Assembly (NCBI RefSeq): GCF_037392515.1
Contig: NC_090288.1
Coordinates: 15,718,969 to 15,782,968, forward strand
Length of the DNA stretch: 64,000 nucleotides
Reading direction: 5' to 3'
Origin: Haliotis asinina
Lineage: Eukaryota; Mollusca; Gastropoda; Lepetellida; Haliotidae
Made by a program: the position numbers and the translations under genes. Below are positions 2,266 through 26,675 of this stretch, piece after piece (within the stretch, counting starts at the first letter, position 1; each line of letters starts with the position of its first letter). The notes below the pieces were generated by a model. The model saw only the letters and a list, made by a program, of their open reading frames with translations. It was not told the origin of the DNA and ran no database searches.

Positions 2266-2334
2266 GCTAGCCTGGCGACACCGCTCCTTGAGAGAGATTG
2301 CATAAGTGGTCACATCTTTGCTTGGGGAATTCTT

Positions 2335-4186: not shown

Positions 4187-4562
4187 AAAAAGGAATAAGT
4201 AGAGCGTTCATTATCTATTCGTGATGATGCTGGTTCTGGTGCAGGCTACTAACGACATAGAAATGGTCTTCACGTCAGATTAGTGATATGAAATGGAGTC
4301 TCAAGGGATGTTAGCCATGGCTTTCATAAAATGACATGTGAATGACTGTCAGATCAGAAACAGAAATAATTAGTTCCATCTAAAATTGGATCGGGCACTA
4401 TTTTCATGTGGTGTAAACACGTTGTTGAATGTCATCCTGTACCACGAACTGCAATCAAAGTATCTGATAGCGTGCCTAATATCAAAATAAGTATCTGTTG
4501 TTAGTCTGTACTGTTCGCTCCCATGTGTGTTGTCTGTGATTAGTTTTGCAAGACTTGATAAC

Positions 4563-4650
4563 CCACATGGACAGAACGTGTGAAGTCCTTTTCAGGTGTT
4601 GCACGCTGTGATATTGCTGGATTTTTTTCTAAGCGCGGCGTTAAACTAAC
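4563..4650 (+). mobile_element. SINE-A 3' fragment
   Basis: Begins inside the element (ACGTGTGAAG) and keeps GTGATATTGCTGGA and GCGGCGTTAAAC. The tRNA-like head is missing. Confidence 0.6.
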
Positions 4651-4719
4651 AGCATCGGGCATTTAACAAGAGCTGATTGAATAACAAGCTTAGTCTTGAG
4701 TTAATTCTGCTGACTCCGT

Positions 4720-6270: not shown

Positions 6271-9089
6271 TGTTGTTTCCGAACAGTTTGCAGGAACTGT
6301 GACTGTTTACTGTTTGGATCACAGAGCTTGTTTGTCTCATTTCCTATTCAGAGGATTTATGTGTTTGAGCGTATTTGCATGCAATATTGAAAAGGAATGG
6401 TCACAAGTTATGCAACTTGTTAAAGTTATCTCCCGACTATTACGTGTAGAACAAAGCATGACCCGTGGGCAATACGAAGATGTAAAGCTGCTTTCCAGAT
6501 GCTGCCGTACAGACTGATGCTAATATCTAAGCTAACGTTTAGGCCAACGTCCTGTATCAAATCAAACCGGCAGCTGTCATACTGTGGACATTTTAAAAAG
6601 TCTGATTGACATCAAATACCGAAGCACCACAAAAGCAACTTTTCAACCTCACTGACATCAAAAGATCAGCATTTAAAGAACTACACGAGTGTCTTAACTT
6701 AGTTTGTACTATATTCATGGTTCTTTCACCAAACAGGAAATATTTAGGAATTTCTTTTATTTTTTCAGGTAATTTAAATGAGGACCTCAGATAACTTCAA
6801 AGGATCTTTATCCTTGGGCATGTTGTTCCCCATCCACACATGTTATAAATGTTAAGACATACATGATGATAAGAACTGAAAGTGTGCTTGGTGTGACAAT
6901 TTCTTTCCATTGTCACATGTTGAAGACGTCGTAAAAACATGACGTTAGGATTTTGATCAATCAATTATAAATTCCTATTTCTTTTCTGTCCAAGCTGCTG
7001 TTCGTGGCTTGAAAAAATATCGAATCAGAATTGTGAATCAGAATTGTCTTTTCGACACAACTTTAAAAAGGCCATAAACCATTAGTCTTGCACAGAGTTT
7101 TACCGTGTACCATAAGTGGACAAACTGCACGTACGCACCTGTTTGGCATCAATATTACAAAAACAGGATCTCTTTAAAAACCGTATTTTTCTAAATTTAC
7201 TTGAATTTGTTGATTATTAAGAGGTTTTTCGCTTTGATCCGGCTCATGATTAACCTTTGTGTGTGATTTTACATCAGTTATGACGGCATGAAATTTGTCA
7301 TATTTCTGTTGAATTCAAGAAATCATTGTATTGTAACTGGAATTTTTCTTTTAAATAAGTTTACTAGTTTTTATAACAAATACCAATATCTAATACAAAT
7401 TCAAATTTAGTCAGGTGTTTATTTTGTATGCAAACCAACAGTAAATGTCTTTAAAGCGAACTATAATTAAATATCTTAAATGGTCTTAAATATTTCCATT
7501 TGATATAAAGTCATTATCTTCTGGATGTCATCTAGAATATATTTCTGATCACTGACAAATGAAATAGACACAACTCATTTTGTAGAAATTCGAGACGAAA
7601 GAGTTCATATTTTTTTCCGGAAACACGATTTGCCATCGAGATTCTAACTAGCAGGCTTTGATCCGAGAATTCAGTTTAGACCTCAGTCTCTACTACGACA
7701 AGTATGGGTTGCTGAAGACAAGTTCTTTCTATGAAGCCCTTTAATGATATAGCTGGAATATTGCAAAAAGCGGCGTAAACAAAACAACAGCAAAAACATT
7801 ATTCGCAGAGAATGTGGACCCACCAAAAACAAAACCGGTGATCAGGCGGAAATGTTTGTAACGAGAATAAAAAATCTGAGACGGAAGCAAGAAAGTTCTG
7901 CGATATGTTCCTTTCATCTTACAGTATTTGATGACTGACGGTATTTGGGAAGGTTTCTTTACCCAGGACATGGAGTCTACTTGTGAACCTTGACCAGTTA
8001 CAAATAGGTGAACGTTTTTCACTGCATAAGAGCTATTTCTAATGTATTGCCCAGAGAACGTATGTAAGACCTCCTCATTTAACTAATATATATGTCTACC
8101 ACCGTTTTTAATAAGTATATTTACACATTTGACATAAATGGCTGTGACCGGACACTATTGCCGTCAGTTCCAGGAATGGTGTATATCCTGCTGGAAAGCA
8201 TTCCAAGAGTTCCTTCCCAAAAGTGCTTCAGACAATTTTCAGTGATGAAAATCAGTTGACCTATTTTGATGTTAATACTGCCCCATCCAGAGGATGAGGA
8301 TTAAGAAAATAATCATTAACTAATTAGCTGGAATCTGAAAAGCGGCGTAGATTAGCTACAAACCCAGATCGAAGAAAATTTCCCTAAAATAGATCATGCT
8401 AACTACAGTATTGGGCTGGGACCCACCCGCTATTACCCTATCTTACCCCAATAGCCATTATGTTCCTAGCATCAAATTTGTAAGAATATATTCTTCAACT
8501 CGGAGGCAGAAATTTCAAGTTCATTCAATATCTTAACCGTTCATTATATTCAAAACAGGGGACTGCACAAATACGAGTGTCTACATCGTCAAAGACAACA
8601 CAGCGTATTAATCATGAAAGAATAACATACTACATGGTTTAAACTAATCGCCACATGATCATAACAGGTCCGGGTATTGAGACGGGTACCCGAGTTCAAC
8701 TACCAAACCGGGTATCCAGGTTACCTGTCCCACCCCGAATACTAACAGTTTACACTGAATGTGGGTTGGGTTTTTTGTTTGTGCGCGTGTTTGCGTTGTG
8801 TTTTAGATAATAATAGACATCAAGTTACCTCGGGTTCTAGCAGTAGAGATTATATTGTCCACAATGAACTGTAAGGTCCCTCATTGCAAATTATTGTTCT
8901 TAGCATACACGTCTTACAGAAACGTTTCCATAACAATAAAATGTACTCATTATAACACTTAATACAGTGTGACAGATGCATACAGATATTGTGATCGTTT
9001 TGCTGAGTAATACAGCCTGGTTTAACTCTCAGTTGACTTGCACATATGTATGTTTGACACATAATACTCAAGATCGATCATTATTTTCA
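6271..9089. other. Non-coding stretch, no gene recognised
   Basis: AT-rich sequence with no open frame above about 93 codons and no conserved peptide. SINE-tail scraps (GCTGGAATATTGC..AGCGGCGTA near 7750; GCTGGAATCTGAAAAGCGGCG near 8328) are the only repeat traces I noticed. Confidence 0.45.
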
Positions 9090-9178
9090 ACCCGTGAAGA
9101 TCCGGGCTACACTTTGTCTTTAGCAACCCATGCTTGTCGCAGGAGGCGACTTATGGGATCGGGTTGACTCGGTCGCTG
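9090..9178 (+). mobile_element. SINE-B 5' fragment
   Basis: CCGTGAAGATCCGGG head followed by AGCAACCCATGCTTGTCG, AGGAGGCGACTTA and GGGATCGGGT. The downstream half is absent. Confidence 0.7.
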
Positions 9179-9679
9179 ATAGTTGTTATAGTGCCTACTT
9201 TTGGAGTGCCATTACAAATATTTCTAAACACCAAAAACTATGTAACAAGGCCGTATGAAATCTAATTATTATTACTCAATCTGTATTCTTAATCTTTTTC
9301 ACTACCTCAGAGTACATTGTTTTGTCAGCTACCCTGTTCCTCATCAAAGTATTCATTCGTTTCCGTCAGCATGTTGTTCATCTTAATTATGAACTATTGT
9401 AAACCAAACGTCACTGTGTCCTGTAATCTGACTGATTGAAAAACATGATCAAATGGTATTAGATTCCCGGAAACTGCAAGACTATTTACTACGTATTGAC
9501 ACGTAAACAATTGTTTTGTTGTGACGCCGTCGGTTCCAAATGCATTCCCGTGCTTCAAATTCTCAATATCACCCGGACATTGGCCAGCAAATGCACCACC
9601 AGCCTATCCCCAGTCGACACACCAACCATACATGAACCCGTTGACACTTAGTTGACACGTTATTTTTTCCTTATGATCC
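9179..9679. other. Non-coding stretch, no feature recognised
   Basis: No coding or repeat signal seen. Confidence 0.4.
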
Positions 9680-9940
9680 TTAAATCGATCCTTATGATGT
9701 TGTGCACAGGATTGTCTGGTCCTGACTCAGTCCCGAACTCGATTACTCAAAGACATCCGTGAGGGCGGTAGAGTACACTAGTGCCTAAAGTGTTGGCTCG
9801 TCATGCTGAAGATCCGGGTTCGATTCTCCTGTATCCTGGCCGTGATGTTGCTGAAATATTGCTTTACGCGGCGTAAAAGCATACTCGCTCACTCACACAC
9901 AGCTGGAATATTGCTGATTTCGGCGTAAAACGAATACTCC
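9680..9940 (+). mobile_element. SINE-B copy interrupted by a SINE-A
   Basis: The SINE-B 3' half (CTTATGATGTTG, GGATTGTCTGGTCCTGACTC, CGATTACTCAAAGAC) stops near 9755 and resumes at 9898 with ACAGCTGGAATATTGCTGA and CGGCGTAAAAC. Between them lies a complete SINE-A. Confidence 0.65.
9763..9897 (+). mobile_element. SINE-A copy nested in SINE-B
   Basis: GGGCGGTAGAGTACACTAGT head, GGCTCGTCATGCTGAAGATC, B box GGGTTCGATTCTCC, tail GCTGAAATATTGCT..GCGGCGTAAAA and CGCTCACTCACAC. Part of the middle is deleted after the B box. Confidence 0.75.
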
Positions 9941-10693
9941 CATGGTATCTACATTGAAGTATTTTGTTATTGATTTGTAACCATCGATCATGTTTTAACA
10001 CTGACAGTAATTGTATAACATTTATTTGTTGCTGCCTCACTGAATTCCTGTGATGTCCAAATTAACCTTACTTTTTCCAATTTGGAAATCGACACGTTTC
10101 AAGGGTTTTACTAACACCCATATGATCTCGTTAGCATCAATTTTAAATATTAATACACCCGTTTGTCATAACCGACACGTATGAATCAAGTAATTGATAG
10201 TGACATATCCGTTCGATCTCCGCATTTTTAATTTCAATTATTAAGGTTTTCGAACAATACGTCACCTCATTGAACTGGCACCTTGAATGGATTGGACAGT
10301 AAATACCAAACCATCTGCCAGACAAACGATGAGTTGGTATGTCTGATCAAAGAAACGCCAGTTAGTGAGGCGGGACACACATCGAATGCGATGTGAATTA
10401 TGAATATCATGAATAAAATACATGAAGGTCAACGCTTCTTAATGATATTTTCACAATCATTAGTTGTTTTGTCGAGTTGTTTAACTCGAACATACTACAC
10501 TGTAAATATCAGTCGAGCAATTTAACTGTTCGTTATACTCAGTATGGAGTCAGAATACATGTATTAACTAACGCTGTCTGTGTTATGGATTGTCTGTTAG
10601 ACTCAGCATAACATTCCTTCAGAATTGGCTGAAAAATCCCACTCGGGTTTTTCATTTTCCAAATATCGATATTATGAGAATATCCTGTACATT
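9941..10693. other. Non-coding stretch, no feature recognised
   Basis: AT-rich, short frames only. Confidence 0.4.
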
Positions 10694-10858
10694 CACCCTC
10701 GAAGATCCGAGTTTGAATTGATCTTCTGCAACCCATGCTTGTCATAAGAGGCGACGCACAGGATCGGGTGTTCAGACTCACTGACTTGGTTCACTCATGT
10801 CATCGTATCCCAGTTGCGTAGATCGATTCGCATGATGTTGATCACTGGATTGTAAAAT
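10694..10858 (+). mobile_element. SINE-B copy
   Basis: CTCGAAGATCCGAG, AATTGATCTTCTGCAACCC, ATGCTTGTCATAAGAGGCGA, ATCCCAGTTGCGTAGATCGA, CATGATGTTGATCACTGGAT. The usual tail is missing. Confidence 0.75.
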
Positions 10859-11111
10859 TTTAAAATCAATCCTTATCCTAATTCTGCATTACTGAGATTG
10901 TCTTTCGCTTCTGTATGATAGGCAAGTATCGTATAATGACATTTATCTTTTCCATGAAACTTAGAAGTACCTTAGCTGTGTATATGACATATATATCCAT
11001 TCTGTCCGTCAAAATAAGAAATGTAACTGCAATCATTATCAGATATTCAAATCATCTAGTTACATTGACATATATGCCTAGTTTGGGCATGTTTGGAAAT
11101 TTTGTGTCCAA

Positions 11112-11290
11112 CCCTTGAAGATCCGGGTTAAAATTGATCTTCAGTATCCCATGCTTGTCATAAAAGTAGATTGTGTGGTCGGGCTTGCTAACTTGGTTGA
11201 TGCATGTCATCGTATTCGATTTGCAAAGTTCATGATTTCAGTCACAGGATTGTCTGGTCCAGATTTGATTATGTACAGACTAGCAGTGAA
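11112..11290 (+). mobile_element. SINE-B copy, tail-less
   Basis: CCCTTGAAGATCCGGG, TTCAGTATCCCATGCTTGTC, AACTTGGTTGATGCATGTCA, GGATTGTCTGGTCCAGA. Diverged. Confidence 0.7.
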
Positions 11291-11419
11291 AGTGCCACTG
11301 GACATGCAGCGTGTGACGTCATGTATGCAAGAAAGTCGCATTCATCTCCTCGACAACGGAATCAGTTTCAGGCTATAGTTTTAACAGCTAGCAGCATTAC
11401 CAACATATGTCAGATTACT

Positions 11420-11556
11420 GGCAGTAGCCGAGCGGTTAAGGCGTTCGACGTAGACCCTGGTTCCATTCCCCACATGGGTGCAAAATGTGAAGCCCATTTC
11501 TGGTGTGATATTGCTGGAATATTGTTAAAACCAGCGGAAAAGTAAATTCACTCACT
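11420..11556 (+). mobile_element. SINE-A copy, diverged
   Basis: A-box-like AGTAGCCGAGCGGTTAAGGC, B-box-like GGTTCCATTCCCC, GTGAAGCCCATTTCTGGTG, and the tail TGATATTGCTGGAATATTGT. The A box here is closer to a true tRNA than in other copies. Confidence 0.75.
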
Positions 11557-12103
11557 ACGTCAGATTAGTGCATGGGCCCTCAGATTAGTGCATACATGAC
11601 CACGACGTCCAGACGTACGGCAAGGTGCTGCCATGTCATGGAACTGCACGCCTGGCATGTTCATAGCAACATGTCATTACAGGATTTGGAGGCTGGTCGT
11701 CTTCCCAGAGGAATCTAGGCTTCATCAGGACAACATCAATCGACGTCAACGTCGTTATCGACGTCGGATGTAACGTTCCACAGACTGGTTTCTGTATTCT
11801 GCATTCGGAACGTATTGGTGTGTGAAGGCATCACTGTCTAGAATGTGGTCACGGATGGCAACATAATTGTTTGAAGGAGCAACATACAGATCACAGATCA
11901 CTTCCAGATAGAATGGTATTACAGAGCTTTTCAAAACTGGATTAGTCCACCGTCAGTCCTATCGCGTATCGAACAAGTCTTGGCTCTTGATCCAAATCTC
12001 GGATCCAATCCCAGAAAACTTTCTGAACTATAAAGCTTGTGTCACTGCTAAACCGTCAGTATTTTAAGTGTTTCTCACTTTCATTATCAACCAGCGAGAC
12101 GAT
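11557..12103 (+). other. Unassigned stretch, possibly an eroded transposase
   Basis: No open frame. A few words (CGACGTCAACGTCGTTATCG; GTCACGGATGGCAAC near 11855) faintly recall Tc1-type transposase segments, but I cannot support a family. Confidence 0.2.
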
Positions 12104-12335
12104 CCGTGTAGATCCAAGTTAGAATTGGTCCTCAGTAACCAACGCTTGTCGTAGGAGGTGACTAACGGGATCGGGTAGCCAGGCTTGCTAACTTGCTTGA
12201 CACATGTCACCGTATTGCGTAGATCGATGCTCATGGTGTCGATCACTGGATTGCCTGGTCTAGACTTGATTATTTACAGACCGCCGCCACATAGCTGGAA
12301 TGTTGTTGAGTGCGGTGTACTACTAAACCCACTCA
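12104..12335 (+). mobile_element. SINE-B copy, nearly full length
   Basis: GATCCGTGTAGATCC, AGAATTGGTCCTCAGTAACC, AACGCTTGTCGTAGGAGGTG, TGACACATGTCACCGTATTG, ACAGACCGCCGCCACATAGC, tail TGGAATGTTGTTGAGTGCGG and CACTCACTCA. Confidence 0.8.
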
Positions 12336-13256
12336 CTCAATGGTGAGACAGCGGACGGACAGAATACAAGAATAAATACTGAAAGATGTTGGAATTTTTT
12401 TCACAAAGTAAATCAAGAAGTCGCTTTGTTTCGGAACCATTTATTTTTATAAATGTAGTCTGAAAAAGAAAGACCAAGATGATGCATTTTTGGGGGGTGG
12501 GAGTGGGGGTAGGGATTTGCGAAGGAAAGAGTATTTTTATAACAAAAGCGCACATATATGTCGACAACGACTGGGAAAATTGAGGTAAGACCACCTTTTC
12601 CCATTCAACTTCAGAATGACATGCAAACCTGGCACTGTCTAGTGGACTGAGAATCGATCCCACCCTACTTGTTGCCTGCAAAGACAATAACAGGTTCAGG
12701 TCATCGCCTTGATTGATTTAATATTCCAAAGACATCAGTATATTGTCCGGTGGCATCATTTGTTCGCGTTAATGTACATTTGCCTGAGAGTTACTTACGG
12801 TGATATTTGTCCGGATTTAGAAGGATGGTAATGCTTGGACAGTCAGTCCAATCTTTTCAAAGTAGAGTTCTGTTTCTGACGTTTCTCGTAAACATCACTG
12901 GCCAAACAACAACTATCGATCCATGCCCTAAAAGTCTTCAAGGCCTTTGACATATGGGAAATACATAAGGAATCGAAGTGTTCTTCAAAATGGAACTTCA
13001 TCCTGACAACGATTTGTCGCTAGATCTCATAAACAAAGCTTTCAATTCAGGATAAACATTTTTGGGAGATAAGGGATACAGCTTTTTGAGAAAGGGGTGC
13101 ACGCTATTGAGAAACTGAACACTTCATTTTCACCTGAGTTTCAATGGTCATGTAACAATATGTCAGGACAACAGGGGTGGGGGCGCACCCCTCTCTGGAT
13201 CCGTCTATGCAGATGATAGGAGCATGTTCTTACACACTATTGCTATGGTTAAGTGC
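12336..13256. other. Non-coding stretch, no feature recognised
   Basis: Frames of 63-116 codons on the minus strand have no family resemblance and no splice context. Confidence 0.4.
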
Positions 13257-13372
13257 GATGGGGTAGCCCAGTGGTAAAAACGTTTGCTCGTCACGCCGAA
13301 GACTCGAGTTCGATTCCCCACATGGGTACAGTGTCTGAAGCCATATTTGGTGTCCCCGCCGTGTTGTTGTTG
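13257..13372 (+). mobile_element. SINE-A copy with simple-repeat tail
   Basis: GATGGGGTAGCCCAGTGGTA head, GCTCGTCACGCCGAAGACTC, GTTCGATTCCCCACATGGG, then TGTCCCCGCCGTGTTG passing into a GTT-rich run instead of the usual tail. Confidence 0.8.
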
Positions 13373-14634
13373 TTGCTGTTGCCATGCCAACCCTACGGAA
13401 GAACTCTGGAAGATGACAATAATTATGCCGGGTCAGTGACAGGTCACAGGTCACACGCCCAACAGAACCGCCTTCGAGAGTGTAATTCTATATAATAACA
13501 GAAGGGCGTCGCAAGTAGTTTTGAATTACCATATAGCATACCAAATTAGTATTCGACATCACCATAGAAGATCCTTTTACAAACGTTGTGGTCTTATGGA
13601 ACTTGTTGTCATGGGGATGACGCCGGCGGGACAAACAATGATGTTGACGTCGTGCTGTTATGTTGTCGTTTCCATAACATATCTAGAGGTATGTATTTCT
13701 TGAACAGCAAAGAAACGCAACGCTTACTTTTATGAGATTGCAACTTTTTTTTAAAAAATTGCGTCTCCGTTGCTGTTCAGTATACATGTATTTATGTAAC
13801 TGTACATTCGTTTTCAAAACAAGATTCAGACTGGTTTTGGGGGGATGTGTTCAAACAACGAAAACAACAATCAGCGTTGGTTTCAACAATATGTTTATTA
13901 AAATTCAAGATCTAGCCAGTGAAATAACGGAACAGATAATGTAATGAGAGGAGAAGAGGAAAGCCATTAAGACAGCAGTCAGTCAACTTCTGGCCTGGTG
14001 AAGGTAGAACACAAGCCATAACATAATCGATCTCAAGATCTGCATTTCGGAGCATTTGTCATTATTAAGAGGACAGGTGACTTCTGTGATTTATATCTCA
14101 AGTTACAGAATTGGAGAAAACAAATTTTTGATTCTTATCTTTCGACCGCCTGTTATCTTTCTGTTTTAGAGTGGACATGGAAAAGGAAAGCCAAACAATG
14201 ATCGTATATTAAATCGCGAGTTCGGGGAATTGGAAAGGAGAACATTCTGCAATGGAGAGTGTTATTCCTCAGGGAATTGATTTGATCCTGTGACGTAAAC
14301 ACTTCAGAGTGACTTGAACCTGGGGTTGAACCGATCTTCTTGCATGGGTTCTTCCTTCCTTCAGACGGTTTTCGGAGTAACATCAAGAAGATCCCCAAAT
14401 TCAAAAAATATATATTATCATTTTACCCAGTCAAACATGTTTATTTAACCGAATGATATGATTAAGTTGACAGGTGCACGATTTCTGAAACCGCTGTCTC
14501 CACAGTATACAATCGAACCTCCATTATTCGGACACTTGTTTTATAATAATGATAAGTGCGTGTTTAATACGCTAAACTCCATTCTCAAGGCGAATGCTCA
14601 TGACACTATGAGTAAAAGTGCATCACAGTATTAA
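13373..14634. other. Non-coding stretch, no feature recognised
   Basis: Short frames only; nothing conserved recognised. Confidence 0.4.
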
Positions 14635-14822
14635 TCTGCATAGCCCAAGCTGCCTGTGAGGTTAATAATCATATGACTTATCCCACCGGGTACCCATTTT
14701 CTACTGGGTAAACAGAGGCAATTTAAATTTGAGCAAACGCAATTGTCCAAGGTGACACCACACGTATCACATGTGTTTGTTGTGGGACAGAAATGACGTC
14801 CTCCAAACTCTCAGGAGTCTGG
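14635..14822 (+). repeat. Interspersed repeat family C, copy 2
   Basis: Shares with 15-210 the words CCCACCGGGTACCCATTTTC, AACAGAGGCAATTT, CACATGTG and AAACTCTCAGGAGTC. Its 3' end abuts the M2 MITE that follows. Confidence 0.6.
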
Positions 14823-14915
14823 GCTCAGCTCTCTTAGCGCCAAGACAGCCATAGGTGTCATACTTTACCTTATGACTATATGAGCGCTCAGAGAGCTTTG
14901 AAAATCTAGGCCCTG
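14823..14915. mobile_element. Short palindromic MITE, family M2, copy 1
   Basis: CAGCTCTCTTAGCGCCAAGA on the left pairs with GAGCGCTCAGAGAGCTTTG on the right, followed by AAAATCTAGGCCCTGG. Same family as 15501-15612. Confidence 0.55.
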
Positions 14916-15337
14916 GCTGTCAAGTACGACCATCAATCGCCCAACGTAGCCTAACTTCAGCTGGTTGTTACCTGAGCTATATGCACAGGACCACACACCA
15001 CCGTGTAAGACTGCATGATTGCTTTTAAACGGCAAATCGGTCCAAATACATAGTTTATACTTTTCAGTATTCGCTTTCAACTTGGCCTGACATGGAAAGA
15101 CTTTACTTTTGAGATATAAAACCTAAAAAGTAATTTGAAATAATAGTCTAATCAGGCAGTGTTTCTTAATTTTCTAAGAGAAACGTTGATATTTGTAATT
15201 ATTAAGTCGCTAACTTTCAATCACACTGTAAAGACTGTAACTTGAAAAATAGAATTTAAAAAAAGTATATTTGAAATCATTCATAAAGTGAGATGCATTG
15301 CATCTTAACGTAACGAATTTACAGACATTGCTTTATA
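14916..15337. other. Non-coding stretch
   Basis: A segment around 15165-15340 (GAGAAACGTTG..TATTTGTAA, then GTCGCTAACTTTCAATCACA) recurs diverged at about 38288-38450. Both are immediately followed by a SINE-B, so the SINE-B plus its leader may form a larger repeat. Confidence 0.4.
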
Positions 15338-15640
15338 AAGAACTGGTCCTCAGTAACCCATGCTTGTCGTAAGAGGCGATTAACGTGATCGGTGATCAGA
15401 CTCGCAAACTCACACGTATCATAGTATCCCAGTTGCGTTGATCGATACCCATGTTGTTCATCGCTGGACTCAATTATTTACAGATAGCTGTCACATAGCT
15501 GAGCCTAGATTATCGAATCTCTCTTAGCGTTAAGACAGTCGTTAGTTAATGTTATTGTATGGCACTTACGGCTATCTTAGCGCTAAGAGAGTTTCGAAAT
15601 TCTAGGTCCTGGTATATTGCTGAGAGCGGCATTAAACAGC
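15338..15640 (+). mobile_element. SINE-B copy interrupted by an M2 MITE
   Basis: GGTCCTCAGTAACCCATGC, TTGTCGTAAGAGGCGATTAA, ATCCCAGTTGCGTTGATCGA, then CACATAGCTG. The tail TATATTGCTGAGAGCGGC resumes only after 112 bp of M2 sequence. Confidence 0.7.
15501..15612. mobile_element. Short palindromic MITE, family M2, copy 2
   Basis: GAGCCTAGATTATCGAATCT CTCTTAGCG on the left is mirrored by CGCTAAGAGAG TTTCGAAATTCTAGGTCCTGG on the right. It splits the surrounding SINE-B at its AGCTGG/AATATT junction, so it inserted after that SINE. Confidence 0.65.
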
Positions 15641-16244
15641 AAATTAGCAAAACAAAAACCAACTTAAGGAAAATAGTGGTTCACTCCCAAAAGACAGACC
15701 TCCCACAAGACAGACTCAATGAGTACACTAATCACAAAATTATATGGTGTTTGATACGTTTGCCAGATACATGTATATATTATTGATTTTGATAATATTC
15801 ACTAGTAAATGTGATCTGGAAAACATGTTGATGTACATATATTTGTTGATCCAGAATCAATAAAACTATAATTATCACCCAATATTATCTCTTTTATCTG
15901 GGCACATACCATTATTACGAAGGGTACAGCTTAATTAAGCCTTATGCAACCAACCACAAAAGGTGTTGTTTTAAGCAGTCTGTCATTTGGGAAGATATGA
16001 AAGGCTGCACTAGAGTGAGTGGAGGATGTGTCAATGGCACCTTGGGGGGTACACAGTTACATCATGACTCGACAGCTTCATGAAGACGACTCAAATTAGT
16101 ATTACATGACTACTGATCCTACACACGAGAGACAGATCTTAGTACAACTAAGGGGCGCAACTCTGCGAATCGCTGCGTCTCAGATCACTAAAGAAGTGAG
16201 TGTGGACGTTTACAAAAGAAGGGGGCATAAAACTGGAGTCCTGA
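15641..16244. other. 3' flank of the channel gene
   Basis: Downstream of the receptor stop codon on the minus strand. It should hold the 3' UTR. I could not pick a convincing minus-strand AATAAA. Confidence 0.35.
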
Positions 16245-16460
16245 TTACTTGATCCGGTGTAGTTCAGGTGTAAGTTGCCCTGACAGCTTATAGTACATCC
16301 AGTAGATGATGTTAAAGACCACGAAAGCCACCGGAAATAGACCCCTGGACGCCTTATCAACAATTTTCCCGGGGTCCCTTCCGCTGTCAGCCGCTGAGAG
16401 GGTATTGTCGTTACTGTCTCGTGTGTCTATTCCAGTATTTTGGTCTGTTGTCATGGAAAC
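16245..16460 (-). CDS. Channel gene exon 7 (M3-M4 loop end, M4, stop)
   Basis: Encodes residues 343-413, phase 0 in. Acceptor TTATTCTGCAG at 16471-16461. M4 reads [20 protein letters not shown], close to the GlyR M4. The first bases of this exon and its acceptor are the unit that is tandemly repeated upstream. Confidence 0.9.
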   Translation of the reverse strand, partial: VSMTTDQNTGIDTRDSNDNTLSAADSGRDPGKIVDKASRGLFPVAFVVFNIIYWMYYKLSGQLTPELHRIK

Positions 16461-19400
16461 CTGCAGAATAAGAGTACACAATGTTCAACATCATTCTAGC
16501 AATCCAGTATTTCGGTCTGTTGTCATAGAAACTTGCAGAATAAGAGTACACAATGTTCAACAACAGTCTAGCAATCCAGTATTTTGGTCTGTTGTCATGG
16601 AAACCTGCAGAATAAGAGTACACAATGTTCAACAACAGTCTAGCAATTCAGTATTTTGGTCTGTTGTCATGGAAACCTGCAGAATAAGAGTACACAATGT
16701 TCAACAACAGTCTAGCAATCCAGTATTTTGGTCTGTTGTCATGGAAACCTGCAGAATAAGAGTACACAATGTTCAACAACAGTCTAGCAATTCAGTATTT
16801 TGGTCTGTTGTCATGGAAACCTGCAGAATAAGAGTACACAATGTTCAACAACAGTCTAGCAATCCAGTATTTTGGTCTGTTGTCATGGAAACCTGCAGGA
16901 TAAGAGTACACAATGTTCAACAACAGTCTAGCATTCCAGCTTTGAACATGTGGTCGTCTAGAATGTTGTTACGTTCTAATTCCGGTCTCTAATTCCTGTC
17001 CCTCAATCCGTTCGATCATAATCGATTATCAGCTCAATATTTCTGGGTCAGCATCGCGTGAGTGAATGTGGTTTTAGGCCGCTTTTAGCAATATTCTAGC
17101 ACCGTTTCATCAGAAATAGGCTTCACACATTATACATATGAGGGGATTCAGACCCCGATCCTCGGCGCTACGAGAGGACGTGTTAATTACTGGGTTCTCC
17201 CACACACCCCTATTTCCCGACTAGCAGCTGCTTCTGTTCTACTTTGTGTTGTGTTCCTAAAGCAAAACAAACCTCAAGACGTTAACAGAGTTATAACAGT
17301 ATTTCAACAGCATCTGCTTTTTTGTTTGTCTGTTATGTTTGTTTGGTTTTTTTGGGGGGGAGGTTGTTTTTTCTTTCTGTTTTGTTTTGTTGGGTTTTTT
17401 TTGTTTTGTTTTTTGTTTTTGTTTTGTTTTTGTTTTGTTGGGGTTTTTTTAGGGGGGGGTGTTTGGCTTTTTTGTTTGATAATGTTAGGGGTTTGTTTTT
17501 TGTTTTTTTTGGAGGGGGGGTTTGGACTTTTTCCCTTTTCGCCTAAAACATCCCAAACGTTGCCTCGCAGGATAAACGAGACTGCCTATCTCTTGCGTTG
17601 AGGATAGTTATTTGCAAAGTAATTAAGATTTCTGAAGCTACTCCTGTCTACATGTCCCCATTCATTTGTTTCACCAAATATTAATAACCCACGGTATGCT
17701 TTACTTCGGGATTTTCTCCCACATGAAGCAGACACACCGTTATATAAGTCACAAACTATTCAAATCAGCGTTAACCACATTTAGACGATTCCTGCGTTAA
17801 TGCGCACATATCGATGACATATCGATCTCACTGCGTTACATCTTTGAGACTGGCGAGCCTGTTCAAATCTTGATCAATATAAGATCAGCACTGTATTTCT
17901 TGTCAATCAACACCACAACCACATTGTGCAGAATGAGATTTTTATTGTAGTGAAACCCTATATGCTTTCTTAGATACGACACACACATAGCAATGTTCCA
18001 GCAATACCGCGGCGGGGATACGCCCTCTTAAGCACTAATCTGAGGGCCCATGTACTACCCATGTGCGAAATCGAGCCGGGGGTCCTCGGCGTGACAAGTG
18101 GACGCTTTAACTTCGCCACCCCAAGGCCCCTATAAACTTTGAAAGAAGGCTGTTACGCGAAGCCGCGTGTTAGATATATTGGTTTTTCAAACTAAACATG
18201 CCGAGAGATACAATTGTGGATGCTGATTAGATGCCGTACAATCAACCAGTACGAAAGATATTTGAAAAGGTATAAATTGGCCAGATAACCAAGTATTGCT
18301 GATGAAAGAGTACTGAATAGCGAATAATCGAGAGGTTTTTCAAAGGTTACATGTTTATTTGTGGAAAGCAGAAGTCTGATTTTCTGCGCTGTGATTATAT
18401 TACATAATGATGTGCTACCTTCTCCTTGTGCTTCTTGTTTGTTTTGAGCTTCTTAAACCGCCTGGACAGCACCGTGACGACAGCATACTCCATGTAGGCG
18501 GCAAACACAAACACCAGGCACGATGTCATCCACACGTCAATCGCCTTCACGTAGGGAACCCTGGGAAGATGTGCACGCGCACTCGAGCTCTGGGTTGTGA
18601 TGGTGAGCACTGTAAGGAGCCCAACTGAGATTCTGGCGGGAACTGCCTCGTGGTCAACCCAAAACGAGGCCCAGGACAAGACGACAATGAGGACGCTGGG
18701 GATGTATGTCTGTGTGGCGTAGAAACCGATCTCTCGTTTGAGGTGGAGGACAGCTCTCAAGCAGGTAAATTTTCCTGCAAATGTTAAGCGACCGTTTGAT
18801 ATTCCATTATCTAGGACAGTAACTCGAAATAATTCTGTGGCGTCATATTTTGTTTGTTTGGCGATGTTTTGTTTGTTTGTTTAATGCAGCCATCAGCAAT
18901 TTTCCATCTATATGGGGCGGTCTGTCAGTGATCAACAGCATGGGCATCGATCTACGAATGCGTCAACCAAGGCAGCGAGTAAACTATCACATCATCAAAC
19001 CAGTCTTACGACAAGCATGGGTTGTGAAAGACCAGTTCTAGCCCGGATCTTTGCGGGTCTTTTCTGTATTGTGAGGTTTCAACATATAAAGTCTACCTCC
19101 AGGTTACAGACGCAATCACTACTCAAATGTAGTCCCGCCAGTTAACAGTTTTTCCAGCTACGCCCGTTTTATCACTGAGCTCAGTCGCAAACATGACCAC
19201 CGGAGACCTAAGTCGCTATTCAGATTGTTCCGGGATCACAATGTGTAGGTCTTGCAGTTTATGTGGAAATACTGCTCATAGTTATCATAAGTATCTGCCC
19301 AAAACAAAAGCTGTGGATCCGAGTGATCCGACCGTGTTGGTCACGAAAGCGGTCCTTAAAGGCGTGAAGCCAACTGAAAATCACTCGGATCCACAGCTTT

Positions 19401-22400
19401 TGTTTTGGGCAGATACTTATGATAACTATGAGCAGTATTTCCACATAAACTGCAAGACCTACACATTCACATCAGGGTTTTTCAAACAATATTAAGGAAT
19501 TAAACCACTGGACTGTCATGCTGCCCATGAGCTCGGTGAAAGGGCGAACTGTATATGTTTTGAACGAAACCAGAAGAACAGCTTCCTGGCTATCAAAGGG
19601 AGGCAGCTCTTATCAAAGAATTTAGGGCTTAGACGATTGCGCCACCAGACAGAAAGTAAATGGGTGGTGGTGAAGCTTAGTTGTTCTGGTGTTGGCCAGT
19701 CCCTTCTGCCGATGTTCGATCCCCACATGAGGGTTAAATCCAGTAACAGTTACACAGTGTGGCGTAAAACAATAGTCGATCGATATTCTTGGATAATATT
19801 TCAAAATCTGATCTAAATAAAGTGTTATATTCTCTGCGATAATAAATATGTTCGTTCACTGACGCACGGGTCAATCAGAACATACCTATGGCATATGTTG
19901 AAGAACAGTCCTCGGCGATGACCTCGGAGATACTGAAGTCGGGGATGTTTGCCTCCGGTCGCACCGACGTCGCCTGACGATTCGCACTCCACCGGAAGTA
20001 GACCGAGTCGGCTGTGAAGCTGTCTGCAACAACAGTTCCTTCTGAATAGCTATGATTACAAAAAGCAGGCTCAAGGGGTCCACATAACAATGGAAGGGAA
20101 GGGCTTATATATTTTTCTTGTATTTTCTGGAACAATTTTTGATAACAGCAAGCCGGGAACCGATTCAGTATAGATTGTGCGTTGAACGTAAGTGTCACTG
20201 AGACATTTTGCGTGTTTCGAATGGCGATCCGAATTATTAGACTGCATGGGGAAGGGAGTTCGATCTATGATTCGATGGAGGAGAAGGAAAAAGTTTGCAG
20301 GCATTTTGTGTGGTTGTAAATGTTCCTGAACCGACAACCAGCACCTCTACAATGGTTGAAACAGGGAATAACAGGATTAAGAACAGAGAGATAGGCAAAT
20401 ACAAGACACTATTATGGATGACAACTTCTTTAATTCTTTTAACACGACGTTTCAAGGCTAATTCTTGCCCCTTCGTCAGGTGGATGTTAGGCTGTTATTA
20501 GACGTAGGTCACCCGAGAGGACGACACACTTCTGGGGCTAAAACATTATGTTCGCCAGTTAGGTCCACCGTGCCACTCTTAAAGAATAATCATCACCTCT
20601 AATTTTTGATTACTTGATTCACTTCCATCAGTAGTGTCTTTGAATTGTGTTTAACCCCCTGCCCCTTGACACCAACTTATTTACAACGTTATTAACAGGA
20701 TACAAAGTTGAATAATGAATATATACACTAGAGGTAATCCCCATCCAAGAGCCCGGATCGTATTTATTTCAGTTTTGGCACCATCCAACGTGAATGTACA
20801 CGTTTTCGTATCTGCATTTACACTTCAACATTCAAGTACAGCATACTATTTATTTCAGTACGATTATATTTTTTTGTAAATTATTCACCGATTTCATGAG
20901 AAAACACATTTGTTATTTTTACAGTGCATTAAAGGGAAATCGATCACCTGTGCGTTCTTGAAGCAATCTTCTCCTCGGTGTTATTGCCAAGAAAATAAGA
21001 TCGTTGGGGGTATCCCATCCACTTAACGAGAGTAGATCTATATGGACGTTCAAACACAGGCAAACTGTAGCGCAAATGGGTTGCGCAGCATGGAGAAAAT
21101 GACCAGTTTCTTACATGCGAGCGAAGCGAGCAAAGGTTTGCAACGAACCTTTCTTGCTTCAGTACGAAAAATAATTTTCATGTCAAAATAAAATATCACC
21201 ACCATAAGAGAGGGGGGTTATAGTTCACATAGTATTTATCCATTCTACATTTGTGGTTGATATGGAGAAGCCCTGGAGCACAGTGACCACTTACAACTTT
21301 CCATTGCAATGTAACAGGTTTGAGCGTCCATGGGGAACTTGATCAGGTTCATCTGACACTGGACGATCACTGACAGCCTGGAAACAGAATGTTATAGAAG
21401 ATGTACGCCTGAAATGTTATGTCAGCCAAACTCGGGAGTATATGATGTGATGCATGGTGTGCGGAAACCTACAAACACAAAAACACACAGCATACTCGGG
21501 GCACATACATTTGCCCACAGGTCACGCCATGTGTTCCGATAACTTACACGTGCGTGCATTTCGTTATTTGAATCAATAATGCCTCACCTTACCTCACCTA
21601 TTAACAACGAACTTATCTTACCGTTATAAATATCGCCTTTTCATTCCTATGCAGCCTTGAATTGTAGAGGTGACCCAGTAGTTAAAGCGTTCGCTCGTCA
21701 CGCCGAACAATCGTGTTCGATTCCGAAATTGGGTTCAAAGTGTAAAGTTCATTTCTCGTGTCCCACGCCGTGATATTATTGCAAAATTGCCAAATGCGGC
21801 GGCGTAAAACTAAACTCACTTACTCACGTCTCTTGTGCCCAGTGTAACAATAAGTACCATTTGTAAACGTCTGGTTGACGCGGTCAGAGATCCAAGCTCA
21901 GACATATTCAGACACGACACAACTTACCTCTGTGTGTAGAGAACGGTCCCGTTTGGGAAGAGTCTAATCATGATGTTCGGGGTTGTCAGGTTGTGCAGAA
22001 CCTCGTGTTTTGATTGGGTGAAGTAGAGATCCGGCACCCACAGGGATCCCAGACGCTTGTGACTGACGACAATACTGCGGTTGAAGTCGTCGAATACAAG
22101 ACGTCGGTCTCGCCACTGTTGCCGTAAGAAGAAGCTAGTGCTCACCTCCTGTAAGATCAAAGTATCTTCACTACTTCACCTCATTATATACGAGACAGGA
22201 AAAAAATTGGTTGTAAAATTCAAATAACTAAATGGACTTTCTCCTAAAATGGCCTCAGTGTCGTATATTCACGTGAATTTCCAAATGTGATAACAACTCA
22301 CCCCTCTTCAACCTGTCCTTTTCTCACCTTCGTTCACTCTAACCTGTCTCTTCAATATCCCCGCATGTTTTCAAAGAAATACAGTTTACAGTTTTTACAA

Positions 22401-25400
22401 TTATGTTGTATAGAATTAACATATTTAACATGACCCCAAGTGGATGTGTAAAGGTCAGTCTACAGTGGAATCGTCTCTCTTGAATTAAAATACACATAAA
22501 ACTCAAGACTTATTAAATGAGTCCGTTCTGTTCCGTGAGTAGTTCCGTTTGCATATCGCCCAGTCGTAGTTGTGAGGTCGATGATCGGGATTTCAGTCAC
22601 AGGATTGTATGGTCCAGGATCTTTTAATAAGAGACCGCTTTCGTATTGGTGGACCATTCCTGAGCGTGCCTTTAAACAACAAACTTTGTTTACACTCGTG
22701 TCCTATATCACACGTGATCAAATGTAACACCGTTCCCGTGAATTAGATTTAGTTTTCAGCAACCCATGTTTGTCGAAAGAGGCGGCTGACGCTGACGGGA
22801 TCATGTTGTGAGGCTTCCTGTCGTATTTGATGCATGTGACCGTATCCCAGTTGTGTAGGTCGATGCTCATGACTTCAACCATTTAGATGGTCTGGTCCAC
22901 ATTCGATCAACTAAAGTTCGCCGTCATATAGCAATGTTATTGCTGAATATATCGAACAGCAAACAAACGCAACCTGGAATAACGGAAAATCATTTGTTCC
23001 AGAAAAAATTGTCGCAATTCCGAAGTCGCAATTCCGATGTCTTCAACCTACCATTTTGATGTTGCTGACGGGACCGACTGAATTCAAAGCCATATCAATT
23101 TCAACACGGGTTGCCTCCCCTGTAAATATTAAACACAAGGTCAGAAAATACGTGTCATGACATGTTCGTGAAATTATGACATGAAATTATTCAAATTTCA
23201 TAAATACAACATCAGTTATTTAAAAGATTGTTTCTTAAACACCATATTTACAACTTTATATAAAGAGACACGTGCTATAAGAAGAAACTATACGCATCAC
23301 GTTACGATTATCATATCGCTAGACAATTCATATACTCCTCACAAAAAGTTAAACAACACAAATGTTTAGTCTCATTATCTGAAATTGCACATAATGTAAT
23401 GGTGCTATAAAATGGGAAACATAAGTGCACACGATTATCAAAATGTCATAACATGGTACTGAGGAATAATAGACTTACACATCATCAGCATGTACCCCTG
23501 AAACAATGCGCTGCAATGACGGGGGAGAGCGTTAACATGAAGCTTCAAGTCAGTTTTGGACAGTGAAGCAGTGTTGGGTGACATGTATGACCACCATGGG
23601 CCAAGTGTAAGCTTCTACACGTCCTTGCATTGACCAAATGAGTTGCTGTTGTGGAATATTCTGCCATTCTCTCTGTAACGCCTGCTCAAGGTCACCCAGA
23701 GTCTGGGGTGAACATGGAGACCGTAAACATGGCTTCCAATAATGGCTCAAGCACGCTCAGTGGGATTATGAGCAGGTGATCTTGCAGACCAGTCCATATG
23801 TGTGACGTTGTTGATCTAAACAAGATCATTAATAACTCTTTCTTGGACACTATCATCCAAGGACCACATCATCATTATCCACAAAAGACATGTTTGTTGT
23901 ACCAGAGGAATGATTACAGGTAGGTGTTAACCGATCAGAGTGTATATGTGAAATGTGGAGTACATTCATGACACACATTTTGCATATTGTTTCTGAGGAG
24001 GGTTGTGTTCAGTCGATGTTGTCAATAAAGGTTATGCATTCTTTGCATACATGTGGGCAAATGTCGCTATAGAGATTGCTAAAGATATTAGACTGAAAAT
24101 ACGTGTTGCCCATTTTTTTGTGAGGAGTGTAGAAACAAAACGATACATGCATATATCTGTCGAGCCAGCACACGGGATGTAATATAAACGATAAAATACT
24201 TATATCTTATGTATGTGTGTAAGAGGTATCATTTTGACTGAAATAAATACGTGTAATATATTTGGGAAACTATTTCCCTTGAGGTATTATATTTGGGAAA
24301 CTATTTCCCTTGAGGATAATGTTCTGAGGCGTGTCTGCTTAATGTGGCAAAACAACCCATGTGTTACAGGTTTTAGAGGTTTCCAAAGCTGATGAAACGA
24401 CATATGTTTCCATGACATTTCTGCTTTTCGATCGTATCATGTCCAAGCTAAGGGACGCAACTTGAACTGACACAGATTGTGTAAATCAGAGTAAATCTTT
24501 TAACAACAATCTCAATCGTAAATTATTTATCAACACAAACAATTATTTGATTTTAATATAACATTTTGAAGACGCTTGAAAAATCGGGTTAAACTGATCT
24601 TCATCAACCCATACTTGTCGAAAGAGGCGACTAGCGGGTCACTGGACTGCCTGGTCCAGAGTGGATTATATTATTTACAAACCGTCTCCATATAGCTAGA
24701 AGGACTCTGACTGTGGTAAACAAATCATTTGGTTGACAGGAACCACCGTATCCCAATTGTATTGGTCGATTCTCTTTGTATCAATCATTGTATCGATTGT
24801 CTAATCTAGCTTAGAATCCATAATCCCCTATCACGTCTGGAACATTGCAGCTTTAAATAAGTAACAAAACAGAAGAATGGATCATTAAATGCATAGATTA
24901 AGCAATCAAGTAAACATCAGTTTATAAACAAGTCACAGCTCCCTCTACATTTGTAGGTAAATTCCATAATTGGAATACAATGTAAACATGAATGTACACT
25001 AAACAACGAAGAAAGCTACACTTCTTTGTTTTGTTATGTTCATGTTATTTGCCATCAATGATATTTCTTTGACTTCAAGATGGATATCTAAATTACAAAG
25101 ACACAGCCTTGTTTGTGATGGTAAAATGTGGTAATTAAGTTCGGAACAACCAGAGGATGGTTATACCAACATTGTTATCACTGTATGTAAACATTGCCAC
25201 TGCCCTATATTAACCGCGGTTACGTATAGTCTTTGGTTTGCGGTAATATACAATACGAAGCATTCACTACGAAGACGTTTCTCGATGTTTTAGCCAGGGA
25301 GATTGTAGAATGTATGGCACAGCCCGGCACACTTGAGTTGCCTCAACATTCTACATTGATTGCATGAATCTGCGTTATGACCGAGGAATTAAATAGCGCA

Positions 25401-26675
25401 TAATAAAGGCAAGATGCTGGTATGGATAACAACGTCTTATTCTGTTATAATGCGACGTTTCGGTATAGATCCATATTTGTCAACCAAGATCAAAGCTTAT
25501 AGCGAGGCAGTCGATTGATTATGGCGTCCACTCCCGTGATATTGCTGAAATCGGGATAAAAGCAAACTCACTCACTTACATCTATCAAAAAGACATGTGC
25601 ACCCCTGGGAAACAGTGAGTTTTTCTCTCGCATTAATTAAATTCATTTTGTCAGTGACAAGAACAGGTTTGGGGAGAGGGCTATCCTATGTTTGATATTT
25701 TCATTTAATACAACACTCAGCGAAGGTTGAAGACTACATAAACGTTGCCGCTGAAACGTCAGATTGAAACGTCAGCTATATGAAGACAGTCTGTAGACAG
25801 TCATGTCTGGATCTAGTGATCAACAGCACGAGCATAGATCGACTGGGATATGTGGACACGTGTCCACCAAGTCAGCGACTCTCACCACCCGATCCCGGTA
25901 GCCACCTCATACGACAAGAATGGGCCGCTGAAGACCAATTCAGACACGGATCTTCACGGATAGTATCTCTAGATGGACATGTAAGGGATGTTTACCACGA
26001 GTCAGAAAGGCATACTGATAGAGTCATACATACCCCGGGCGAAACTGTCAAAACGATTTTATCTCACCTACTTGCTTCGATATGCCATTGTAAAAGCAAT
26101 AAAATAAATTGGAAATTGATTTTTTTCCGGCACTCCCTGCAGCGCTGAAACTCCAAACTGTCCAATCCTTTACAGTGGTATCTGTGTTGCACTTTTTCAG
26201 GCACACACGTGGTCACTGGACGTTCCTAACGGTGTTCATCACTTTTTAAAGGTCACAGATCGAATGTGGGTAGGGACTGGTTTACGCCAACATAAGTCAA
26301 TTTCCTCAACATGTACATGTATTTGTGGCTATACTTTATGAAGTAACGATTTCACCATCAAGCGTTTCTTTCGATGTGAAATTCAACTGTTTCAGCTAAA
26401 ATGACCTGATGCAAAATTAGACCCTGGAATCTGGAATTCTTTGAATGAAAGGAAAGGTAAACTACAGCAAAACTTGCAAGGATTACATTACTCCATAACT
26501 TTGAATTTCACTTACCTTCATCAACGCCCGGTCTTATTGTAGAATCATAACACTCTGGGTCCAGGAGACGATTCAGGACATCATGTTCAGTTACATTATC
26601 ATCTGCTCCATGGGTTTGGTGGAAGCAGAGACTTATTAACACGCAGGCAATAAACAGTGATACTCCAGACGCCAT
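16245..26675 (-). CDS. Anion-type Cys-loop receptor subunit (glycine receptor/GluCl-like), 7 exons, 413 aa
   Basis: Encodes a pentameric ligand-gated ion channel subunit of the plasma membrane. Coding exons in order: 26675-26516, 23119-23052, 22148-21928, 21377-21295, 20023-19886, 18774-18419, 16460-16245. Every intron has GT-AG ends and the phases join without a break (1242 nt). Features: signal peptide about 1-23; FLRQQW at 83-88 (binding arginine R85); LWVPDLYF 112-119; Cys-loop C157-C171 with FPMD; loop B MESYSF; second cysteine pair C217-C228 (GKFTC), typical of glycine receptors and GluCl; M1 about 244-262; PAR 269-271, the anion-selectivity signature; M2 [12 protein letters not shown]3 304-326; short M3-M4 loop; M4 383-401. 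Sequons at N27 and N129. The ligand is not decidable: loop C has I223 where vertebrate GlyR alpha1 has T204. Pore position 6' is Leu277 instead of the usual Thr. An extra exon in the last intron cannot be excluded. Confidence 0.92.
16430..16945. repeat. 72-bp minisatellite carrying the exon 7 splice acceptor, 7 copies
   Basis: Seven units at exact 72-bp spacing (CTGCAG or TTGCAG at 16461, 16533, 16605, 16677, 16749, 16821, 16893). Each minus-strand unit contains a pyrimidine-rich TACTCTTATTCTGCAG acceptor and the first about 30 nt of exon 7 (GTTTCCATGACAACAGACC). The 16533 unit is altered to CTGCAAG. The 228-codon plus-strand frame over this array is a by-product of the 72-bp period. Confidence 0.92.
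17058..17204 (-). mobile_element. SINE-A copy, diverged
   Basis: GTGAGTGAATGTGGTTTTAG, GCTTTTAGCAATATTC, CAGAAATAGGCTTCACACAT, then a corrupted B box and head. Confidence 0.65.
17336..17530 (+). repeat. T/G low-complexity tract with G runs
   Basis: Runs of TTTTG interrupted by several uninterrupted runs of seven or more G. A similar tract lies at 43722-43825. Long plus-strand frames here (Phe/Cys/Gly-rich) are composition artefacts. Confidence 0.8.
17985..18123 (-). mobile_element. SINE-A copy, diverged
   Basis: AGCAATGTTCCAGCAATACC, GGCGGGGATACGCC, AATCGAGCCGGGGG, GGCGTGACAAGTGGACGCTT. A small foreign stretch (CTTAAGCACTAATCTGAGG) sits in the middle. Confidence 0.65.
18419..18774 (-). CDS. 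Channel gene exon 6 (end of loop C, M1-M3)
   Basis: Residues 224-342. Acceptor TTGCAG at 18780-18775, donor GTAGCA at 18418. Without splicing the frame would read on only 7 codons to a stop at 18395. Contains GKFTC, M1 with [13 protein letters not shown], the PAR signature, M2 and M3 ([20 protein letters not shown]). Confidence 0.93.
18882..19060 (-). mobile_element. SINE-B copy in channel intron 5
   Basis: GTGATCAACAGCATGGGCAT, ATCGATCTACGAATGCGTCA, TTACGACAAGCATGGGTTG, AAAGACCAGTTCTAGCCCGG and ATCTTTGCGGGTC. The region between is partly lost. Confidence 0.7.
19240..19467. repeat. Perfect 88-bp inverted repeat (long hairpin) in channel intron 5
   Basis: Arms 19240-19327 and 19380-19467 are exact reverse complements over 88 bp (outer end AATGTGTAGGTCTTGCAG, inner end GTGGATCCGAGTGAT), around a 52-bp loop. 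It lies in the transcribed strand of the channel gene, so the pre-mRNA could form an 88-bp duplex. No clear target duplication or TIR motif of a known MITE was seen. Frames over it are short. Confidence 0.95.
19886..20023 (-). CDS. Channel gene exon 5 (loops B/F/C)
   Basis: Residues 178-224, phase 1 in and 1 out. Acceptor TTGTTGCAG at 20032-20024, donor GTATGT at 19885. I chose this acceptor because it gives [13 protein letters not shown] with no gap against GlyR LESFGYTMNDLIF. Ends with EDCSSTYAI of loop C. Confidence 0.88.
   Translation of the reverse strand, partial: TASQPTRSTSGGVRIVRRRRCDRRQTSPTSVSPRSSPRTVLQHMP
20390..20500 (-). repeat. Repeat tail with hammerhead-like core, copy 1
   Basis: The minus strand reads CTGACGAAGGGGC, an 8-nt spacer, GCCTTGAAACGTCG, then TTGTCATCCATA. 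CTGANGA..GAAAC with a short stem between is the layout of a hammerhead ribozyme core, as found in Penelope-like element termini. A diverged copy is at 25415-25500. The resemblance is partial. Confidence 0.35.
20501..21294 (-). other. Channel gene intron 4 (rest)
   Basis: AT-rich; no repeat or coding segment recognised. Confidence 0.4.
21295..21377 (-). CDS. Channel gene exon 4 (Cys-loop)
   Basis: Residues 150-178. Acceptor TTTCCAG before 21377, donor GTAAGT at 21294. Encodes the family-defining loop: C157, KFPMDAQTC with C171. Too short for a plain frame scan and found by joining phases. Confidence 0.9.
21667..21827 (+). mobile_element. SINE-A copy in channel intron 3
   Basis: GAGGTGACCCAGTAGTTAAA, GCTCGTCACGCCGAACAATC, GTTCGATTCC, GTGATATTATTG, GCGGCGTAAAACTAAACTCA. 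Confidence 0.8.
21928..22148 (-). CDS. Channel gene exon 3 (loops D and A)
   Basis: Residues 77-150. Acceptor TCTTACAG, donor GTAAGT at 21927. [11 protein letters not shown] and LWVPDLYF align directly with the GlyR extracellular domain. The frame would run on to 22160 at the 5' end, but the acceptor fixes the start at GAGGTGAGC. Confidence 0.92.
22149..23051 (-). other. Channel gene intron 2
   Basis: Contains a SINE-B at 22742-22965. The remainder is AT-rich and featureless; a SINE-B scrap (GATTTCAGTCACAGGATTGT near 22590) was noticed. Confidence 0.5.
22742..22965 (+). mobile_element. SINE-B copy in channel intron 2
   Basis: TTTTCAGCAACCCATGTTTG, GACGGGATCATG, TATCCCAGTTGTGTAGGTCG, ATGCTCATGACTTC, then a degraded tail. 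Confidence 0.7.
23052..23119 (-). CDS. Channel gene exon 2 (N-terminal beta strand)
   Basis: 68 nt, residues 54-76, encoding [20 protein letters not shown] and then IKM. Acceptor TTTACAG, donor GTAGGT at 23051. Matches the GlyR segment before FLRQQW (NIFINSFGSI). Phase 1 to 0. Confidence 0.85.
23550..23840 (-). pseudogene. Degenerate Tc1/mariner transposase C-terminus
   Basis: Minus-strand pieces [16 protein letters not shown] (a corrupt SPDLNPIEH motif) and [20 protein letters not shown], the usual C-terminal helix of Tc1 transposases, separated by stops and a frame change. Lies in channel intron 1. A plain DNA transposon relic. Confidence 0.7.
23841..24573 (-). other. Channel gene intron 1, part
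   Basis: Includes a tandem duplication of a 31-bp unit at 24257-24317 (ATTTGGGAAACTATTTCCCT twice, itself containing the palindrome GGGAAACTATTTCCC). Otherwise featureless. Confidence 0.5.
24574..24722 (+). mobile_element. SINE-B copy with internal deletion
   Basis: GAAGACGCTTGAAAAATCGGG, TTCATCAACCCATACTTGTCG, then a jump to GTCACTGGACTGCCTGGTCC, ACAAACCGTCTCCATATAGC. Confidence 0.65.
25415..25500 (-). repeat. Repeat tail with hammerhead-like core, copy 2
   Basis: Shares the layout of 20390-20500: TATGGATAACAACGTCTTAT, then GCGACGTTTCGG and TTGTCAACC on the plus strand. The CTGANGA box is lost. Confidence 0.35.
25527..25578 (+). mobile_element. SINE-A tail fragment
   Basis: GGCGTCCACTCCCGTGATAT, GCTGAAATCGGGATAAAAGC, CTCACTCACTTA. 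Confidence 0.55.
25805..25965 (-). mobile_element. SINE-B copy in channel intron 1
   Basis: GTGATCAACAGCACGAGCAT, GATATGTGGACACGTGTCCA, CACCCGATCCCGGTAG, ACGACAAGAATGGGCCGCTG, GACACGGATCTTCACGGAT. The 122-codon plus frame across it comes from the repeat. Confidence 0.7.
26516..26675 (-). CDS. Channel gene exon 1 (start codon, signal peptide)
   Basis: Starts at ATG 26675-26673; residues 1-53 plus one base. A hydrophobic leader ([14 protein letters not shown]) ends near HG23-A24, then a sequon at N27 and DSTIRPG, the conserved N-terminal strand motif of the family (YDARIRP in GlyR). Donor GTAAGT at 26515. Confidence 0.9.

Follow-up and report, generated by a model that had tools for sequence, protein, structure and literature searches.

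A 72-bp minisatellite across the last intron–exon boundary of a glycine-receptor-like gene in the abalone Haliotis asinina

Described boundary repeats and the abalone array

Minisatellites termed 'mirages' have been described from amphioxus in Adh3, in the globin genes BflGb6 and BflGb9, in TnC, and in PGBD5 (PMC3087553, PMC3902484). According to RT-PCR of the globins and data on Adh3, regular splicing seems unaffected by the arrays, although the authors noted that cryptic splicing might occur at the AG/GT signals; a globin locus carried six and three units on two haplotypes (PMC3087553). For the Adh and TnC arrays, aberrant mRNAs were absent according to a later paper (PMC3902484). In the literature searched, the term 'mirage' was applied to amphioxus arrays only, and related boundary repeats were found in human, where internal tandem repeats at exon–intron boundaries can alter splicing via novel introns (PMC2812944), and in potato (PMC4974935). 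No boundary array in a mollusc was recognized in the literature searched (mostly without subscription journals); a paper on Conus introns, checked by passages, spoke of intronic microsatellites and gave no boundary array.

The abalone case was found in a window of 64,000 nucleotides of contig NC_090288.1 (positions 15,718,969 to 15,782,968), to which all coordinates refer. TRF identified a minisatellite at 16431–16939 (period 72, 7.1 copies, 96% match, score 955), whereas 10 dinucleotide-preserving shuffles of the window yielded three arrays in total with a top score of 66. Read on the minus strand, the array spans the boundary of intron 6 and exon 7 of a glycine receptor (GlyR)-like gene, with each 72-bp unit comprising 43 nt of the intron 3' end and 29 nt of the exon 5' end. 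Unit alignment placed the first exon-side bases of the units, referred to as u1 to u7 from the donor side, at 16892, 16820, 16748, 16676, 16604, 16532, and 16460, all 72 apart, and seven acceptor units at 72-bp spacing had indeed been claimed in an earlier sequence-only reading of this DNA. Amplification of a splice acceptor at this site is confirmed, and the array is a boundary-spanning minisatellite.

As in amphioxus, short tandem units lie across an exon–intron boundary, many of them with AG/GT, and they are homogenized inside with the boundaries excluded from homogenization. The repeated block combines an intron 3' end with the 5' part of an exon, as in BflGb6, and the 72-bp unit compares with 10 to 72 bp in Adh3. 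By its anatomy, as far as it can be read from the sequence, the abalone array is a 'mirage' minisatellite; it differs from those of amphioxus in that the host is not a lancelet, the gene codes for a ligand-gated channel, the last intron is affected, and the case is known from sequence and annotation. In the potato RdRp gene (PMC4974935; Rogers model), the duplicated block likewise comprises an intron 3' end, the acceptor, and an exon 5' end, and the AG|GT present in five of the six upstream abalone units is a precondition for an intron gain of this kind. However, a new spliced intron was reported in potato, whereas in the abalone no donor inside the array is known to be used. The human boundary repeats are recent segmental duplicates with coding-exon repeats that are kept or spliced out (PMC2812944), whereas the upstream abalone units all carry a stop. 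The oscillator allele of mouse Glra1 is similar in that alternative acceptor use results in two transcripts and a truncation in the TM3-4 loop, but it is a 7-bp deletion without a repeat array and a null disease allele (PMC4891346). Repeats of this kind are known, although not common, and the present array places one in a neurotransmitter-receptor gene of a mollusc.

The receptor gene and its annotated product

The GlyR-like gene was built by hand from splice signals and reading frames and consists of seven exons on the minus strand: exon 1 (coding part 26516–26675, ATG at 26675), exon 2 (23052–23119), exon 3 (21928–22148), exon 4 (21295–21377), exon 5 (19886–20023), exon 6 (18419–18774, encoding M1–M3), and exon 7 (16245–16460, encoding the end of the M3–M4 loop, M4, and the stop). 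All six introns are of the GT–AG type, including the phase-0 intron 6 (16461–18418, GTAGCA ... CTGCAG), and the open frame encodes 413 aa. The end of exon 6 at 18419, the phase, and the assignment of M4 agree with those of the earlier reading. A protein search with the 413-aa model gave 213 proteins (best 120 of the 213 listed, clusters at 90% identity), and from end to end the model was 100% identical to the NCBI protein 'glycine receptor subunit alpha-2-like [Haliotis asinina]' (P0001). Pfam assigned the ligand-binding domain PF02931 (E = 5.4e-41) and the transmembrane domain PF02932 (E = 2.4e-34), and GlyR alpha-3 chains aligned with the product, including the M4 region. The product shows M1–M4 with PAR preceding M2, which we take to be a mark of anion-type Cys-loop channels.

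Because of the GT–AG introns, the open frame, the identity to the NCBI protein, the presence of both Pfam domains, and the alignment with GlyR alpha-3, the gene is considered intact. Its product is, judged from the sequence, an anion-type Cys-loop (glycine-receptor-like) subunit, the glycine part of the name being given by similarity only. The identity to P0001 further implies that the annotated product is spliced at 16461|16460, the acceptor nearest to the exon. An 'isoform X' tag is absent from the NCBI name, and the 90%-identity cluster has two member sequences; both refer to annotation and not to reads, and the annotation may have picked the sole frame that reaches M4.

Near the exon 6/7 junction, the probable ortholog of H. 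cracherodii (P0002, 83% identical) reads KEKIVSM versus KEKVSM in H. asinina, and the extra I suggests that the boundary may differ by one codon between the species. A short minus-strand frame in intron 1 upstream of exon 2 (23553–23756) is, by eye, similar to the end of a Tc1-type transposase. An uninterrupted 402-aa frame on the minus strand (31709–32914, around 5 kb upstream of the receptor ATG) looks like a Tc1/mariner-type transposase, a name likewise given by eye.

Unit structure, origin, and genomic setting of the array

Gene model, alignment, and the identity to P0001 all identify u7 (16432–16503) as the functional copy, with its AG ending at 16461, exon 7 starting at 16460, and private changes at −34 and −31. 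By frame, only 16460 leads into M4, as had been proposed for the copy nearest to the exon; u7 would be the sole authentic boundary and the six upstream copies intron sequence. Among these decoys, u2 (16792–16863, AG ending at 16821) is exactly identical to u4 (16648–16719, AG ending at 16677), and u3 (16720–16791, AG ending at 16749) to u5 (16576–16647, AG ending at 16605). The four units match the true acceptor over 30 nt upstream and 28 to 30 nt downstream (28 nt in u4, 30 nt in u5). The decoy closest to the donor, u1 (16864–16935, AG ending at 16893), has a change in the tract and matches over 6 nt upstream and 30 nt downstream. In u6 (16504–16575), CAG|G is altered to CAA|G, and the AG is moved by 1 nt to end at 16532; the other five upstream units keep CAG|GT. 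The acceptor string earlier ascribed to the units in common, TTCTGCAG, was found in five of seven (u2–u5 and u7) and is represented by TCCTGCAG in u1 and TTCTGCAAG in u6. The one altered unit of that reading is u6, which lacks CAG|G as stated but still has the displaced AG.

Differences from u2–u5 amount to two to three positions in u1, three to four in u6, and two to three in u7, and private changes are confined to these three units; the inner units are homogenized and the edge units divergent. The heterogeneity bears on the copy number in the assembly, which might reflect a collapse or expansion error. Only one assembly was at hand, and an apparent assembly error in the draft genome was reported for the BflGb6 array of amphioxus (PMC3087553), but the abalone units are not uniform, with private differences in u1, u6, and u7, and 509 bp should be short for a long-read assembly, so that we regard such an error as hardly probable.

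The motif CTGGAAT occurs on the minus strand at 16933–16939, where this upstream copy overlaps the first three bases of u1, and in the exon at the end of u7 (16429–16435). The two copies of this microhomology pair are 504 bp apart, corresponding to 7 × 72. The array probably originated by slippage or unequal exchange that duplicated one 72-bp segment between the two CTGGAAT copies, and its expansion is probably recent, the identities of u2 with u4 and u3 with u5 marking a recent 144-bp step. Copy-number variation between animals is plausible, since these identities point to recent turnover and amphioxus haplotypes differ with six versus three units.

A search of the genome (1.143 Gb, 159 contigs) with the 72-bp unit gave at least seven matches, all inside the array; a dispersed or mobile element was rejected, as no unit match elsewhere was among the genome matches listed. 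Upstream of the window, two GlyR-like paralogs, P0006 and P0005 (the latter for its exons 5–7), have the same phase-0 intron between M3 and M4, as read by eye against the protein sequences, indicating that this intron is older than the split of the paralogs. In neither of these two paralogous introns 6 did a TRF row start, leaving the array unsupported as a family-wide feature; it looks secondary and specific to the GlyR-like gene of the window. The plus-strand segments L008 (approximately −99556 to −96166 in window coordinates) and L009–L012 (approximately −84706 to −51300) are exons of these two further GlyR-like genes (P0005 in part, P0006), which form a local paralog cluster.

The minisatellite background (period ≥20, score ≥150) was determined for 264 kb around and including the window and amounted to 19 arrays, this one included, covering 10,898 of 264,000 bp (4.1%). 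Blind placement would put 0.50 of the 12 splice sites of the gene into minisatellites, and one of 12 was observed; the overlap of array and splice site is by itself not improbable because the surrounding stretch is repeat-rich. Other TRF arrays in the window are a 54-bp minisatellite at 4894–6087 (22.2 copies, 94% match), the period of which is a multiple of 3, a 97-bp minisatellite in two blocks at 61404–63135 with an additional 194-bp higher-order period, and a perfect 126-bp tandem duplication at 59872–60118 (2.0 copies, 100% match). Reading of the boundary array as a coding repeat was rejected for the minus strand: one frame has few stops but TGG is changed to TGA in two units, and the remaining two frames have stops in every unit. 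On the plus strand, one frame stays open across the whole array, because 72 is a multiple of 3 and one open unit opens all; this is treated as chance.

Acceptor choice and predicted receptor products

Each upstream unit contains a stop within the frame of exon 7. Splicing at u1–u5 would add 15 residues and terminate before M4 (357 aa), and splicing at the shifted AG of u6 would add FL after exon 6 before the stop (344 aa). The tail of about 15 residues predicted earlier was exact for the unit with its AG at 16605; u1, u3, and u5 have one tail in common, u2 and u4 have another, and u6 departs from the prediction with its two residues. That decoy products lack M4 holds for the translations from all of u1 to u6. 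As a stop codon in the final exon is not expected to elicit EJC-dependent (junction-dependent) decay, and the decoy stops lie in this exon, decoy-spliced mRNA is not expected to be removed by this route. For GlyR alpha1, pentamers cannot form without the TM3-4 loop and TM4; the truncation E375X alone gave no surface expression, and together with wild type it gave channels with smaller currents (PMC4891346).

In the earlier reading, decoy acceptors could set the level of functional receptor. In an extension of this idea, the decoys might account for much of the splicing and thereby either cut the receptor level according to copy number or give rise to a dominant-negative M4-less subunit. The local match of u2–u5 to the true site and the expected stability of the decoy mRNA towards EJC-dependent decay are in line with such a role, as are the smaller currents after co-expression of E375X with wild type (PMC4891346). 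In human internal exons with competing 3' splice sites at least 20 nt apart, moreover, the upstream site is often preferred, a tendency that is significantly weaker under exon definition (PMC9225289). On the other hand, NCBI has one untagged isoform, amphioxus arrays were reported with undisturbed splicing (PMC3087553, PMC3902484), and the frames, stops, and motifs of the decoys follow from copied intron sequence, making selection unnecessary. We therefore consider a large decoy share unlikely; a regulation of receptor level by decoys would find no positive support beyond the sequence itself.

The explanation that we favor, and consider fairly likely, is a tolerated array of the 'mirage' type that arose via slippage or unequal exchange at CTGGAAT, with most transcripts spliced at u7 and decoys used to a minor extent at most. 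A 72-bp segment across the last intron–exon junction would have been duplicated between the two CTGGAAT repeats and would have reached seven units through additions of 72 and 144 bp. Most transcripts would join exon 6 to 16461|16460, the copy adjoining the rest of exon 7, resulting in a normal receptor, and the upstream acceptors would be at most a minor source of the 357-aa (u1–u5) or 344-aa (u6) product, presumably unable to assemble by itself. From the undisturbed splicing in amphioxus and the single untagged NCBI name, we infer that the proximal acceptor predominates in vivo and that the array is functionally neutral.

Local signals do not account for a preference for u7, since u2–u5 are identical to the true acceptor 30 nt into the intron and at least 28 nt into the exon. 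The sole feature found to favor u7 specifically was a slightly better predicted U2 pairing, with −4.5 kcal/mol for u7, −3.4 kcal/mol for u2–u6, and −4.0 kcal/mol for u1. The five other real acceptors of the gene ranged from −1.5 to −6.4 kcal/mol, some being weaker than the decoys, and U2 pairing thus does not tell real acceptors from decoys. A decoy-specific branch-site defect was rejected at a U2 difference of around 1 kcal/mol or less and is kept only as a weak hint. A further candidate determinant of u7 choice is the exon body, which lies downstream of u7 and is absent right after the decoys.

Use of u7 could also result from two successive reactions, in which a decoy AG|GT is spliced first and its GT then serves as donor of a 72n-nt intron ending at u7. 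The product would be normal mRNA, for which reason annotation cannot reveal this route. The CAG|GTTTCC present in all units except u6 has a predicted U1 pairing of −5.6 kcal/mol versus −4.9 to −10.2 kcal/mol for the six real donors (weaker ones −4.9 and −6.2 kcal/mol), and 6.8% of the 133 GTs in 16200–18500, units included, pair with U1 as well or better. The donor consensus has a purine at +3 and a G at +5, both of which are missing in GTTTCC. The boundary duplication in potato RdRp did make a new intron, but with a separate GTAAG-type cryptic site as donor (PMC4974935). In view of these findings, two-step splicing appears very unlikely.

A slim chance is assigned to a splice-site ladder, in which four acceptors matching over around 58 nt and two altered ones would compete in cis with u7, and the copy number would set the share of u7, either directly or through 72-nt re-splicing steps. 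If this were true, array length would be a heritable dial on functional receptor. As u2–u5 and u7 have around 58 nt around the junction in common, the locus represents a natural experiment on the choice between near-identical 3' splice sites, and it bears on whether boundary arrays are neutral, serve regulation, or lead to new introns.
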